Below are positions 55,820 through 62,180 of a DNA stretch of 64,000 bases, one piece after another. Location of the stretch: contig JAKRSB010000146.1 in NCBI GenBank assembly GCA_022402525.1, positions 1-64,000 on the forward strand, in the 5' to 3' direction. The notes under the pieces were generated by a model. That model did no database searches and was not told where the DNA came from. It saw only the letters and a program-made list of their open reading frames with translations. The position numbers and the translations under genes were made by a program. The DNA comes from Thermosynechococcaceae cyanobacterium MS004. Its GTDB lineage: Bacteria; Cyanobacteriota; Cyanobacteriia; Thermosynechococcales; Thermosynechococcaceae. Numbering within the stretch: position 1 is the stretch's first letter; each line of letters starts with the position of its first letter.

Positions 55820-56163
55820 TTTTTATCCATTAGCTCCATGCAAGCATCCGTCGTGCTACGACCTAAGCGCATCCTAGCTAGCAAAACGGAATGAAAGGCA
55901 CCATTCAATGAAATTCAACATAAAGGAGGCTGGGCTCAGCCTCCTTTTTCATTTAACTATACTGAGCTACCTGGATCCAACTTAAGGACTTTCTGCTGAC
56001 CCGCACTACCCATCATCAATAAGTTCTCGGCTCTATGCAAACCAGGGTAGGCTCAAAACCTTATCAAAAGGTTGATCTAACTCAAAAATGTAAAAAACGT
56101 AATACGCTGTTGACGTTTTTGAAATCATTTGCCATTATGAGACGTAGGGGAGGGCGATTAAAC
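55820..56163. other. 344-bp gap including the terminator and an AT-rich boundary
   Basis: Apart from the terminator, no certain gene. The upstream part (56035-56163) is open in the frame of the antitoxin gene, but its strong ribosome-binding site points to the start at 56164. Base composition becomes AT-rich from here to about 57560. Confidence 0.45.
55922..55950 (+). terminator. strong intrinsic terminator
   Basis: AAGGAGGCTG GG CTCAGCCTCC TTTTT: a GC-rich stem of about 9 bp, GGAGGCTG with CAGCCTCC, then T5. It ends the TPR-like gene transcript. Confidence 0.88.
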
Positions 56164-56559
56164 ATGAACAAAAGTTTTAAGCAAATCCCAATGTCCGAGT
56201 TAAGGGTCAAACTTCCAAAACTTAGGCGGCAGGTTCAATCGGGTAACTTGCGGATTGTATGTACTCACTATGGCGAAGTTGCAGCTTTCTTACTTCCACT
56301 TCAAGATATTGATGATCTCAATTCGGAAGAGGGGGAGCATAGTATTCAGAAAAGCGAGGAAATTCCTCTCACTGAGTTTCGTGATCAGCTAACTGAGGCA
56401 TGGGAGAGGCTGCTGGGTGGAACAGATTGTATTTATCTTACGTTTCATGGGAGGCGGGTTGTTGCATTTGTCTCACCCCGTTTCACGCATTATCTTTCGT
56501 TACCATTAATTGGTGATGCAGCTAAAGTTCTGTTTGTTCGTTCTGAAATTCACTTATGA
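56164..56559 (+). CDS. double Phd/YefM-like antitoxin
   Basis: About 131 residues from ATG 56164, which follows AGGGGAGGGCGATTAAAC. Two Phd-like segments are visible in tandem. The first is KQIPMSELRVKLPKLRRQVQ ... THYGEVAAFLLP; the second is EIPLTEFRDQLTEAWERLL ... TFHGRRVVAFVSP. Phd proteins bind DNA and neutralise toxins; two copies in one chain are unusual. First gene of a three-gene operon with a PIN toxin last. The frame is open upstream to 56035, but that start lacks a ribosome-binding site. Confidence 0.7.
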   Translation: MNKSFKQIPMSELRVKLPKLRRQVQSGNLRIVCTHYGEVAAFLLPLQDIDDLNSEEGEHSIQKSEEIPLTEFRDQLTEAWERLLGGTDCIYLTFHGRRVVAFVSPRFTHYLSLPLIGDAAKVLFVRSEIHL

Positions 56560-56585
56560 CTATTGCAGCATGAGGTTTTGCAGAA

Positions 56586-57554
56586 ATGTTTAAATTCACA
56601 TATTTTGATCCTAAAATTCAATCGATTTTTTCTGACAAGAAAGCATTCTGTGATCTCGCAGTCAAGCAGGAGCTTATGCCTGTTCTAGAAGTCTTGAAAC
56701 AAGTCGGTGAAGTTGAAGGAGCTGTCTGTGGCGCTAAGCCTGGCGTTCCAGGGCTAGTCTATGAACTTAAAGGGAGAACGTTTCAGATCACCTACGCTGT
56801 CGACTTTCAGACAAAAAAAATCAGGCTTTATGAGTTTCAACAAATTTCTCACTTCATTAATTGGAAGATTTCTCTAAATCAAAATCTTCATAAAGCAAAA
56901 GAAAAGCCAATTTATATTCCTCAAATTGGTGACCCACAAAAATTTATTAAAACTGTTGAGCTAATTCATAATGGAACTAACACAGCTAAAGGATTAGGTG
57001 TTGCTTTTGGTAGTGGCGCAAAAAAAGAAAAAGATGTGGCTAGGAGAGGAGACTATCTTGGGAGATCTGTAATAGAAATTGGTCTTGCCAGACGAGGTTC
57101 AGCCAAGAATCAATCTTCAAACATTTACATTTTGACAGAGCGAGGTAATAGAATTGCCCAAAGTAATGATCAAGAGACACGCGAACGTCTTCTTGTAGAA
57201 GCATTGCTGGGGTTCTACCCAATTCAAATGATTCTTGAGAAGACAACCCGTGACAATCAAGAACTCACTAAGGAATTAATTCAAGAAGTGATCTCTCTAG
57301 TTAGTCTTGGTGATGCTGGAGGAGCTACCAATGCTCGTAGAGTCAGTTCTTTAAGAGCGTTGGTGAATTGGGTGTCACGCTGGGCTGGCATTCCAATTCG
57401 GCGAAAAGGTAATGATGGCGTTCAACTCTACATCCCTCAAATATATGGCGATCAATTGCGTCCATTTGGCTTGTGTGCAGGTGAGTTTACCGTTCCAGAT
57501 GATTTCGATGCTCCTTTGTCGGAGAATCTTTTGAGTGCCTTTGAGGGAAAGTGA
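56586..57554 (+). CDS. unrecognised protein in a toxin-antitoxin-like operon
   Basis: 322 residues, no membrane segment. The N-terminal part (KPGVPGLVYELKGRTFQITY, AVDFQTKKIRLYEF) resembles the RelE/ParE/HigB fold. Residues about 118-230 look like a winged helix: KGLGVAFGSGAKKEKDVARRGDYLGRS (in pieces), then YILTERGNRIAQS. A similar C-terminal part ends near VQLYIPQIYGD. The WGIP.. and TERG patterns resemble domains next to restriction enzymes and AAA proteins, which is inference. The TGA overlaps the VapC start (GTGA), so it is translated with the toxin. Confidence 0.55.
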   Translation: MFKFTYFDPKIQSIFSDKKAFCDLAVKQELMPVLEVLKQVGEVEGAVCGAKPGVPGLVYELKGRTFQITYAVDFQTKKIRLYEFQQISHFINWKISLNQNLHKAKEKPIYIPQIGDPQKFIKTVELIHNGTNTAKGLGVAFGSGAKKEKDVARRGDYLGRSVIEIGLARRGSAKNQSSNIYILTERGNRIAQSNDQETRERLLVEALLGFYPIQMILEKTTRDNQELTKELIQEVISLVSLGDAGGATNARRVSSLRALVNWVSRWAGIPIRRKGNDGVQLYIPQIYGDQLRPFGLCAGEFTVPDDFDAPLSENLLSAFEGK

Positions 57555-57934
57555 GAATTCTCCTAGATACACACATTTTTTTATGGTTTATTAGTGGTGA
57601 TACTCGGCTATCCAACAATGTCCGAGATGCGATTCGTGAGCCAGACAACGAGGTTTATCTAAGCGCCGTTTCAATTTGGGAAACAATTGTCAAATACCAG
57701 TCGGGCAAATTACCCCTGCCAGAGCATCCCGGAACGTATTTACCCAAACAGCGTGATCTTCATCAGATTGTCAGTCTTGCTCTTGATGAGAGTAGCGTGG
57801 CTCAATTGGCTAAACTGCCGCCACTCCATCGTGATCCATTCGACAGGATGCTCATCTGTCAGGCGTTACAGAACGGTTTAACCATTGCGACAGTCGATGC
57901 AGTAGTGCGCGCTTACCAAGTCAGCGTCATCTAG
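57551..57934 (+). CDS. VapC-type PIN-domain toxin
   Basis: 127 residues. The PIN-domain acidic residues are present: Asp5-Thr-His (LLDTHIFLW), Glu43 (SIWETIVKY), Asp93 and Asp97 (HRDPFDRMLI) and Asp115 (ATVDAVVRAY). These bind Mg2+ for ribonuclease activity. The GTG start overlaps the stop of the preceding gene. The expected single small antitoxin is replaced by the two upstream genes. PIN toxins of this type usually cleave tRNA or mRNA. Confidence 0.88.
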   Translation: MRILLDTHIFLWFISGDTRLSNNVRDAIREPDNEVYLSAVSIWETIVKYQSGKLPLPEHPGTYLPKQRDLHQIVSLALDESSVAQLAKLPPLHRDPFDRMLICQALQNGLTIATVDAVVRAYQVSVI

Positions 57935-59232: not shown

Positions 59233-59425
59233 GGGTTTAATCTAGGGCTGCTGAACGCAGGGCGATTCTACCAGCGGGGCAGGCGGTCTTCCAGATAAAG
59301 CTGACTTGCCTATCGCTGACTTGCATATCATAGATTAATCGTATACTGGGCTTAAGTCTCTTGAGCAAGCTGGAGCCTGCGTTGAAAAGCTTGCTGAGAT
59401 TCATTTTTCATTCTCAGGGGGAAGT

Positions 59426-59587
59426 ATGCATTTTCTTCACGATGGGCAGCAATGGGAAGTTGTTGATATTACCTGGGACGGGTGGGTTGCAGTGCTGTTT
59501 GAAGGGGGGTGCCGTACCCACTACCGGGCGTTATTTCCGTTTAATGACCCGCCAGCCGCCAACAGGGAAAAGGTTTCCCCCTCATAA
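59426..59587 (+). CDS. small 53-residue protein
   Basis: The ATG follows CAGGGGGAAGT, a strong ribosome-binding site. The product starts MHFLHDGQQWEVVDITWDG and continues WVAVLFEGGCRTHYRALFPF. It is compact, beta-like and Trp-rich. No family recognised. It overlaps a longer frame (59361-59621) whose composition is poor, so this frame is preferred. It precedes the protelomerase-like gene by 66 bp on the same strand. Confidence 0.6.
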   Translation: MHFLHDGQQWEVVDITWDGWVAVLFEGGCRTHYRALFPFNDPPAANREKVSPS

Positions 59588-59652: not shown

Positions 59653-62046
59653 ATGCTTCGCCTAGAACAGAACGATCAGGTCAGTGACACGCTGCATTGG
59701 GAGTCCACACGCCGCGAAATTATTGATTCCTACCGCGATCGCATTGCTCAAGGCGATCGCCTTAGGCTGTCCAAGGAAGATTTGAGTGGACTGGTCGAGG
59801 GATTCATTGCGCTGCTGAAAAGGTCAGAAACAGCAGCAGAGACGGAAGACCAAATCAAGGCGCTTTGCGAAGCTGAAATTCAGCTCCTAGAAGAAGGCTA
59901 CCCGCAAGCTTCGGTGGCTAAGTACGTGACCGTTTACCGTAAGGCCATTACGGCAGCGATCGCAGCGGGTGTGCTAGCGCTGAGCGATCAAAACAGCCAT
60001 CGGTTTATTCATCAGCAGCGGGTGACGGGACTTCGGGAAGAGCGTCTAGAGCATTGGGCGCTGACCTACCTCAAATATTCACCCCAAATTTATGAATCCA
60101 TTGATCGGCGATCGCAGCTCGTGAATCGAGGGAAGCAGCTCAATCTGCGGCTGGTCAAGGTAGAGCGCTATCTATCATTATTGCGGAGCTTTCTAGAAAA
60201 AAAGGGAAACTCTGAAGCGCGATGGCTGGGGGTCGCGATCGCGGGGTTAACGGGACGGCGATTTTCGGAGGTGATGGCGAAGGGAACCTTTCGGCTCACG
60301 AACCATCCCTACCTACTGCACTTTGAAGGGCAGCTCAAAAGCCGAGGCGAACGGGCAGAGGGCTACGACATTGTGACGCTGTTTCCGGCGACGGAGGTCC
60401 TGGATGCCATCGTGCGCCTACGCAGTCTACCGACGGTCAACCAAATTGCGCAGCATACCGGAAAAGAACTCTCCAGTGCGCTCAATATTTTTAATCAAAA
60501 GCTGAATCGAGTTTGTAATGCTGCCCTGGTGGGGGTAGTACCGCCCCTGGAGGGCAAAAAATCGGTGTCCGTACACAACTTAAGAAGCCTGTACGGGGCG
60601 ATCGCGGTTTATTTATTTTGCCCTGAGCTTCAGCATGACTATGCCTTTGTTCAGCATTTTTTAGGCCATGTGATGGACTCGCCCGCCACGGGACATTATT
60701 TTCGCTTTGCCCTCTGCGATAACCAAGGCAATTTACTTCGCAAAAAGGGCATTTTGCTCAATCAAGTTGCACCGCTACCGCTAGAACAGGAGACAGAAAG
60801 ACCCGTGCCCAAAACAACGCCTAGAAAAACGAGGGCGCAAAAGGAGCCCCGTCAGCAGGCAAATCAGCGAGTAAATCAGCAAACAAGTCAGCAAACGAAA
60901 GCGCAAGCAGCTTTAGCTGAGGCCGCCTCTGAGGATGCCGAACTAGCGTCTATTCCGGCAGTACAGAAGCTTCAGCAAGCATGGCAAGCCGAGGTTCGTC
61001 AGCAAATTGCCAGCCTCCGGGATGAATTTGAGGCGCAGCTTCAAGAGCTACGCCAGGAGAGCCATGCGGGCTGGTTTGTCCGGCGAATTGAAGGGCTAGA
61101 GCGCGAAAACCTCCAGCTTCGGCTAGAGCGAGATAAGGCGATCACATCGGTCGCGAGTGAAGGAAAAGAATTAGAGCGACTCAAAACAGAAAAGGCCTTG
61201 CTAGCCCAGGAGCTAAAGCAGGCGCAAGACAAGCTTGACGGCTTCCGACGGCTGCTCACAGAAGATGAAGGCGTAGCGGCTCCTCAGGTGGGGCAAGCTG
61301 ATTTTTCGCCTAATCGTGAGGAGTCAAGAACCAATCGGAAGTCAGAACTGCAACCAGAGCTGGAACCAGAACTGGAACTAGAGTTGGAACTAGAGTTGGA
61401 ACCAGAGCTAGAAACAAAACTGGAGCAGCCCTCAGCTTTGACCCATTCTGCGCCCCATTCTGCGCCAGAGGTTGTGGGGAATCAACCCCGCAAGCAAACT
61501 CAAGGCAATCGACGCAAAAAGGTTTCTGCGGGGACAGTACGTGCGATCGCCGCTCAAGAGACGCCGGCTCAAGAGACGCCGCCAGCAGACTTCTTTCCGT
61601 CAGCTCAGCACCAGCCTCCAAAAGATCAACCTCCAGAACCTCAGCCCCCAAAGCCTCAGTCCGTCCCATCAGATCAGACAAATCACACAGAGTTAATCTC
61701 AACTGCCAAACAGCTTGAAACCGCTGCTCTCTCAGAAGAATCCGTCCTCAAATCGCACGCCCCTAAAGCCAAGAAAGCATTTCAACGAGCTGAAGCAATT
61801 TTTCTCGCGATTAAAGATTGGAATCGCCTGAACCCATTTGAAACATTTGTGGTGAGTCCGGGGTTACTAGAAACAGTTTTTCACGTTCATCGGCAGGCGG
61901 CTAAGGAATTTTGTGAGGTTTTTCAGAATGAACTCTGGGAATACCATCAAGAAATTGGGGTCGAGTCTCCACGCTGGCATAATCGCGGAAAAGATACCCA
62001 AAAGTTGAGGTCTTTTGTAGAAAAGACTGACTTAGAAAAGGCTTAG
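59653..62046 (+). CDS. protelomerase (telomere resolvase)-like tyrosine recombinase
   Basis: 797 residues. Residues about 1-360 match the TelK/TelA catalytic type. The presumed active site has Arg202/203 (AGLTGRRFSEV), Lys229 (GQLKSRGER), Arg311 (SVHNLRSLYGA), His335/339 (QHFLGHVMDSP) and Tyr349 (TGHYFRF). Telomere resolvases cut and rejoin DNA at palindromes to make hairpin ends. After residue 375 comes a Gln-rich linker, a coiled coil (about 440-540), acidic Glu-Leu repeats (about 560-595), a Pro-rich stretch and a conserved-looking C-terminal domain (AEAIFLAIKDWNRLNPFETF). Most characterised enzymes are shorter. Alternative: a non-telomeric relative. Confidence 0.8.
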   Translation: MLRLEQNDQVSDTLHWESTRREIIDSYRDRIAQGDRLRLSKEDLSGLVEGFIALLKRSETAAETEDQIKALCEAEIQLLEEGYPQASVAKYVTVYRKAITAAIAAGVLALSDQNSHRFIHQQRVTGLREERLEHWALTYLKYSPQIYESIDRRSQLVNRGKQLNLRLVKVERYLSLLRSFLEKKGNSEARWLGVAIAGLTGRRFSEVMAKGTFRLTNHPYLLHFEGQLKSRGERAEGYDIVTLFPATEVLDAIVRLRSLPTVNQIAQHTGKELSSALNIFNQKLNRVCNAALVGVVPPLEGKKSVSVHNLRSLYGAIAVYLFCPELQHDYAFVQHFLGHVMDSPATGHYFRFALCDNQGNLLRKKGILLNQVAPLPLEQETERPVPKTTPRKTRAQKEPRQQANQRVNQQTSQQTKAQAALAEAASEDAELASIPAVQKLQQAWQAEVRQQIASLRDEFEAQLQELRQESHAGWFVRRIEGLERENLQLRLERDKAITSVASEGKELERLKTEKALLAQELKQAQDKLDGFRRLLTEDEGVAAPQVGQADFSPNREESRTNRKSELQPELEPELELELELELEPELETKLEQPSALTHSAPHSAPEVVGNQPRKQTQGNRRKKVSAGTVRAIAAQETPAQETPPADFFPSAQHQPPKDQPPEPQPPKPQSVPSDQTNHTELISTAKQLETAALSEESVLKSHAPKAKKAFQRAEAIFLAIKDWNRLNPFETFVVSPGLLETVFHVHRQAAKEFCEVFQNELWEYHQEIGVESPRWHNRGKDTQKLRSFVEKTDLEKA

Positions 62047-62100: not shown

Positions 62101-62180
62101 CTTGCCCCCCAGCCCCCCAATTTTGGGGGAGTCTGAGCTCAAAGTCCCCCAAGGTTGGGGGATTTAGGGAGCGAGTGCAA
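62101..62180. repeat. dispersed cyanobacterial repeat (CCCCC/GGGGG palindromes)
   Basis: CCCCCAGCCCCCCAATTTTG and GTCCCCCAAGGTTGGGGGAT form two hairpins separated by about 20 bp. This kind of element is widespread in cyanobacterial intergenic DNA. It lies after the protelomerase-like gene. Confidence 0.72.

Follow-up and report, generated by a model that had tools for sequence, protein, structure and literature searches.

Telomere resolvases close the termini of linear bacterial DNA as hairpins, and such telomeres have been a subject of study in Borrelia and Agrobacterium and in a small number of phages. The window, a stretch of 64,000 nucleotides from Thermosynechococcaceae cyanobacterium MS004, contains an open reading frame that the initial annotation likened to the resolvases TelA and TelK. 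The question raised by this locus is whether an otherwise ordinary cyanobacterial chromosome encodes a genuine telomere resolvase and, if so, whether the enzyme points to hairpin ends, to a linear replicon or to another use of the fold. The reading frame extends from ATG to stop, and the strand opposite is closed by many stops. The features discussed below are as follows.

59341–59346, no strand: GTATAC, candidate operator or binding site, a lead only, from its rarity and position
59426–59587, plus strand: small ORF of 53 aa with HDGxxWEVVDxTWDGW, directly upstream of the resolvase gene
59653–62046, plus strand: telomere resolvase (protelomerase) gene, 797 aa
59800–60072, plus strand: N-terminal helical-bundle domain, residues ~50–140, matching the TelA helical bundle
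60091–60093, plus strand: Tyr147, aligned with TelA Tyr201
60142–60708, plus strand: catalytic domain, residues 164–352, with R203, K229, H308, R311, H339 and Y349
60697–60699, plus strand: predicted nucleophile Tyr349, equivalent to TelA Tyr405 by alignment
60895–61263, plus strand: coiled coil, residues ~415–537, from predicted helices and coiled-coil matches
61264–61758, plus strand: low-complexity linker of Glu-Leu and Pro/Gln repeats; relatives lack the Glu-Leu part
61759–62043, plus strand: C-terminal domain, residues ~703–797, kept in relatives

Sequence, profile and fold comparisons agree that the gene product is a telomere resolvase of the TelA/TelK family and not a recombinase of the Xer type. 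The PF16684 domain (ResT-TelK_cat) matched residues 164–352 with an E value of 7e-52; the score was 176 bits, where 27 is the cut-off. When the full protein was compared with all PDB sequences, the matches were TelK (1e-6), TelA (2e-5), ResT (0.03) and one coiled-coil protein. The catalytic part alone recovered only TelK, TelA and ResT, plus one chance match at E 1.4, and neither search returned a Xer protein or an integrase. A profile built from eleven close relatives matched the solved structures of TelA (8e-17) and TelK (7e-15), and aligned residues ~50–115 of the window protein with TelA chain 154–221, the helical bundle, at an i-Evalue of 3.7e-05. A model of residues 1–380, with a mean pLDDT of 64 and values of 80–94 in the best-scored blocks of the catalytic core, was employed for a fold search. 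The best eight PDB chains, all below 1e-3, were TelA, TelK or ResT (8vs5, E 4e-4), while XerH, Cre and the Tn1549 integrase ranked below them at E>=2e-3. The outcome that would have refuted the initial annotation, a fold matched by ordinary XerC-type recombinases alone, was thus not obtained. Phage protelomerases were among the sequences aligned for the predictor, which makes the fold search partly dependent on the sequence result. A single-sequence structure of the entire protein was too poor in quality for use. The family itself is already known, as the RefSeq 'protelomerase family protein'. Within it, the window resolvase is not a TelA equivalog: it scores 44 bits with the NCBIfam TelA model NF052462, whose cut-off is 800.

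The catalytic residues listed in the initial annotation, R202/R203, K229, R311, H335/H339 and Y349, are all present. In the profile alignment, R203, K229, R311, H339 and Y349 correspond to R255, K286, R366, H394 and Y405, the catalytic residues of TelA (PMC3558466). The set is complete in 17 of 17 aligned sequences, including TelN of phage N15. H308 occupies the position of TelA Tyr363; most tyrosine recombinases have His at this place, the Tyr being peculiar to TelA and ResT (PMC3558466). Tyr201 of TelA is essential to hairpin formation (PMC3558466); its counterpart, Y147, is invariant among 11 close relatives. Arg205, also required for hairpin formation in TelA, aligns with D151, R152/R153 adjoining. 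This speaks against a working resolvase, although Gloeocapsa-type relatives have the exact Y-x3-R spacing of TelA Tyr201 and Arg205.

The long extension described after the catalytic region was also confirmed, with a Gln-rich linker (residues ~390–415), the coiled coil, a Glu-Leu repeat and a separate C-terminal domain. In alignment with relatives, the coiled coil and the final 95 residues proved to be features of the family, and the Glu-Leu stretch an insertion private to the window copy. No Pfam family was found to cover the C-terminal domain. Elsewhere in the genome, contig C1 encodes a protein of 309 aa (L059:3078-4007) that has no recombinase domain and whose end resembles the C-terminus of the resolvase.

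The window is part of contig C54 (76,278 bp) of a draft assembly of 150 contigs and 4.93 Mb. C54 is chromosomal by its gene content, which is ordinary and includes glk, mfd, purT-like and mazG genes, and no phage genes lie beside the ORF, in line with the initial annotation. The N15-type telomere-phage setting, in which phage genes surround the resolvase gene and a palindrome lies beside it, is absent at the window locus. A Phd/YefM-like antitoxin, a DUF7226 protein and a PIN toxin are encoded at 56035–57934, 2–4 kb upstream of the resolvase. Toxin-antitoxin or PIN genes also adjoin the resolvase on plasmids of Gloeothece and Gloeocapsopsis dulcis.

Further copies of the gene were found in the same genome. 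The C79 paralog is full-length, and to judge from its substitutions (K229 to R and H308 to L) it is likely inactive; the C6 copy is truncated and C68 holds a remnant. The small ORF upstream of the window gene also precedes the C79 and C6 copies, with a dN/dS of 0.22 between these two. At the upstream place where the window has GTATAC, C79 and C6 have TTGTATACAA. GTATAC occurs three times in the 64 kb, and two of the three lie within 750 bp upstream of the resolvase gene. The C79 paralog (L023:862-12361) adjoins a cluster of a DUF499 ATPase, a DUF1156 methylase and an SNF2 helicase, which matches Hma-type defence models. Other tyrosine recombinases are also encoded in the genome.

Comparison of the catalytic part with the copy in a genome of the same genus (G293) gave a dN/dS of ~0.09, a rough ratio since dS is ~2, and on this estimate the catalytic part is under purifying selection. 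The same-genus copies are chromosomal and sit at loci other than the window's; that of G293 adjoins a nicotinate phosphoribosyltransferase gene, and that of G292, which has a frame break, follows cobN. Synteny with the chromosomal copies of genus g117 was considered, since a shared AAA-ATPase gene lies less than 10 kb away in each case. With an identity of only 28% and places in separate clades, these resolvases were not called orthologs.

The genome was searched for a target of the enzyme. No palindrome longer than 36 bp was detected in 0.91 Mb (~19%) of the 4.93 Mb, and contig C54 has no long palindrome or terminal repeat. In control sequence amounting to 1.58 Mb, no palindrome exceeded 40 bp, the length of the longest. 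As a positive control, an N15-like Enterobacter plasmid gave a 60-bp palindrome ~200 bp upstream of its resolvase gene, and most N15-type phage contigs have a palindrome just upstream of theirs. Neither the Gloeocapsa telomere core described below nor, over the cut-off, the CyRepA1 and DUF3987 genes of linear-plasmid replication were found in the window genome. Several candidates were rejected. The imperfect palindrome downstream of the gene (62114–62161, at 62137) is a dispersed repeat with a second copy at C20:18452 and not a telomere. A 30-bp palindrome ~620 bp upstream of the truncated C6 copy is present once but lies within background for its size, and a dif-like site, a 28-bp inverted repeat upstream of C6, was not found upstream of the other copies. 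The palindrome at the start of contig C109, at 26 bp, is short and similar to a common type of dispersed repeat, presumably one that breaks assemblies.

The distribution of the enzyme was evaluated in other genomes. The PF16684 domain was present in 70 of 389 genomes in a class-wide cyanobacterial sample; an earlier sample of the phylum had given 13 of 292. Within the window's own family, 15 of 29 genomes have the domain, with none in genus g2. The closest named relatives are plasmid-borne, and most are called "protelomerase family protein" in RefSeq. No close relatives of the window branch were found in viral contigs. Weak-scoring chromosomal homologs occur in two 2.7-Mb genomes of one genus, G036 (L026:10080-11330) and G328 (C1:1196145), and the catalytic Tyr is missing from the former. 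Synechococcus elongatus was also matched among the named controls. A two-gene version was observed at L031, L032, L033 and L035, where short one-domain resolvases are each accompanied by a second related gene.

Many of these relatives lie on replicons whose ends carry long mirror-image sequences. The plasmid records of two of the nearest relatives are annotated as linear. One of these plasmids, pGLO7428.02, has perfect 1340-bp terminal repeats; at their start is a perfect palindrome of 36 bp, the core of which is TACATTGTTATATTGGAATTCCAATATAACAATGTA. The plasmid of Gloeocapsopsis dulcis is annotated as circular and contains a perfect palindrome of 3476 bp that shares this core, as would be expected if both ends of a linear molecule had been joined. 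The linear Nostoc plasmid pNPM10 has terminal repeats of 1.1 kb, and Fischerella plasmids 4 and 7, which are annotated as circular, have repeats of 2.8 and 1.5 kb. The mirror joints of these three plasmids are 1.9–5.7 kb long and perfectly palindromic at the centre. The telomere core of pNPM10, AAATTAACGGACA, recurs in draft contig G078:C53, which, like C59 of the same genome, has a palindrome at its end, and contig G127:C6 has 263-bp terminal repeats. Draft genome G359 contains a perfect palindrome of at least 856 bp (core TTTATGTTAATTAACATAAA), centred 637 bp upstream of a resolvase gene whose product is 31% identical to the window's. Divergent pairs of resolvase genes with identical scores occur in G436 and G369, and from gene order and scores these look like a palindrome-borne arrangement. 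Gloeothece Cy782202, annotated as linear, has no matching ends, and no long palindromes were seen in the partly read Gloeothece plasmids or in the chromosomal relatives G292, G293, G301, G304 and G305. Three records annotated as circular, AP018302.1, AP018305.1 and NZ_CP119970.1, have terminal inverted repeats or an internal palindrome that indicate linear hairpin-type molecules. For relatives, the proposal of hairpin ends is upheld by the terminal inverted repeats and perfectly palindromic joint of several replicons, whereas the window genome gave no such sign in the 0.91 Mb examined. The carriage in 70 of 389 genomes and the long mirror-image sequences, up to 6.2 kb, in or at the ends of many carrier replicons are new.

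The longest of these sequences is in a chromosome. The single 4.68-Mb contig of G027 contains a 6.2-kb near-perfect palindrome at 2.113 Mb (C1 near 2113190; L021:6915-13085). Each arm encodes a resolvase of 876 aa that matches PF16684 twice, and the chromosomal genes on one side of the palindrome differ from those on the other. The sampled GC skew is positive before this region and negative after it. The arrangement fits a linear chromosome with hairpin ends that was assembled through the hairpin; an inverted duplication or an assembly artefact is also possible. In G294, an 11-kb repeat with resolvase genes is present at both ends of the 416-kb contig C3 and at the start of the 4.5-Mb contig C1 (L090, L092, L109). 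A linear chromosome was considered here and discarded, as C1 also overlaps C2 at a repeat 18.7 kb in, and a misjoin is likely. That some cyanobacterial chromosomes are linear, hairpin-ended and assembled as circles, with G027 as the candidate, and that chromosomal resolvases like the window's serve such chromosomes or chromids is a tentative idea that we consider rather doubtful.

TelA acts as a dimer on a palindromic junction, where tyrosines cleave both strands, which are then refolded and resealed as hairpins. With moderate confidence, we favour the view that the product of the window gene is a functional resolvase of hairpin telomeres, from a cyanobacterial branch of the TelA/TelK/ResT family, and that its target in trans most likely is, or until recently was, a linear replicon. 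Two subunits would bind the palindromic junction left by replication of the linear replicon, Tyr349 would cut both strands a few bases apart, and each strand would be folded back and resealed as a hairpin. The helical bundle and catalytic domain would perform the cleavage and hairpin steps as in TelA. Dimerisation and an additional contact with DNA are the probable contributions of the coiled coil and the C-terminal domain. The chromosomal enzyme would act, or have acted, on its replicon as in Agrobacterium C58, where telA is on the circular chromosome and the resolvase acts on another replicon (PMC13293297).

The main rival, because no target was found in 0.91 Mb and the replication genes tested are absent, is an orphaned or repurposed enzyme. 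The gene would have been left behind by a linear replicon or have moved singly, there would be no hairpin-ended replicon now, and the enzyme might be decaying or have a non-telomeric role. The state of the gene family in this genome, one intact copy beside the substituted, truncated and remnant ones, is consistent with such a history, as are the scattered loci in the same genus and the homolog without a catalytic Tyr in G036, with its weak-scoring relative in G328. However, the catalytic set of the window enzyme is complete and, unlike the C79 copy, its catalytic part is under apparent purifying selection; moreover, ends were examined in ~19% of the genome only. We consider an orphan possible, though clearly less probable than a working resolvase.

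It is improbable that the organism's own chromosome is linear with hairpin ends made by this enzyme. The mirror-image sequence of G027, with a resolvase in both arms at the change in sign of the GC skew, speaks for it, but nothing like it is present in C54 or the other contigs examined, and the chromosomal contig around the gene, 76 kb long, has no terminal repeat. The possibility was also considered that the protein is an ordinary tyrosine recombinase, an integrase or a Xer-like dimer resolvase, that only looks like a telomere resolvase. His308 is the residue used in such enzymes, where TelA and ResT have Tyr, and the dif-like repeat lies upstream of the C6 copy. This is very unlikely, however, since the PDB sequence searches returned no such protein, telomere resolvases filled the first places in the fold search, the dif-like site was not found upstream of copies other than C6, and the genome has other tyrosine recombinases.

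A working resolvase, the reading preferred here, would have wider consequences. If the cyanobacterial enzymes work, hairpin-ended replicons would be common among cyanobacteria, almost all of whose genomes are shown as circles, and public records such as those of Fischerella NIES-4106 plasmids 4 and 7 and the Gloeocapsopsis dulcis plasmid are probably wrong in topology. These enzymes offer coiled-coil and C-terminal domains that are absent from TelA, and they open the possibility of linear chromosomes in cyanobacteria to direct testing. The structural paper on TelA counts cyanobacteria among the bacteria with hairpin-ended linear chromosomes, without detail (PMC3558466). Linear elements have been reported in Cyanothece 51142 and 7822; the literature searched on these elements makes no mention of telomeres, and a study of cyanobacterial protelomerases was not found in the open-access literature.

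Among known systems, TelA of Agrobacterium tumefaciens shares with the window enzyme the helical bundle and catalytic domain, the catalytic residues, the Tyr201 equivalent and a chromosomal gene. The two proteins are ~20% identical, and the window enzyme differs in having His308 for Tyr363, D151 at the Arg205 position and 430 extra C-terminal residues, and in scoring below the TelA cut-off (44 against 800 bits); no linear replicon was recognised in the 0.91 Mb examined of its genome. TelK and TelN, of phages phiKO2 and N15, have the same catalytic core and order of active-site residues, but the window gene has no phage context and no palindrome beside it, and the N- and C-terminal parts differ. 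ResT of Borrelia is similar in the fold of the catalytic domain, whereas its sequence similarity is weak and it has Tyr at the His308 position (PMC3558466). The RefSeq protelomerases of Gloeothece Cy782202, Gloeocapsa pGLO7428.02 and Gloeocapsopsis dulcis are 42–49% identical to the window enzyme over the matched parts and have the same N-terminal, coiled-coil and C-terminal layout. These three are encoded on plasmids, two annotated as linear and one with the 3.5-kb palindrome, whereas the window copy is chromosomal.
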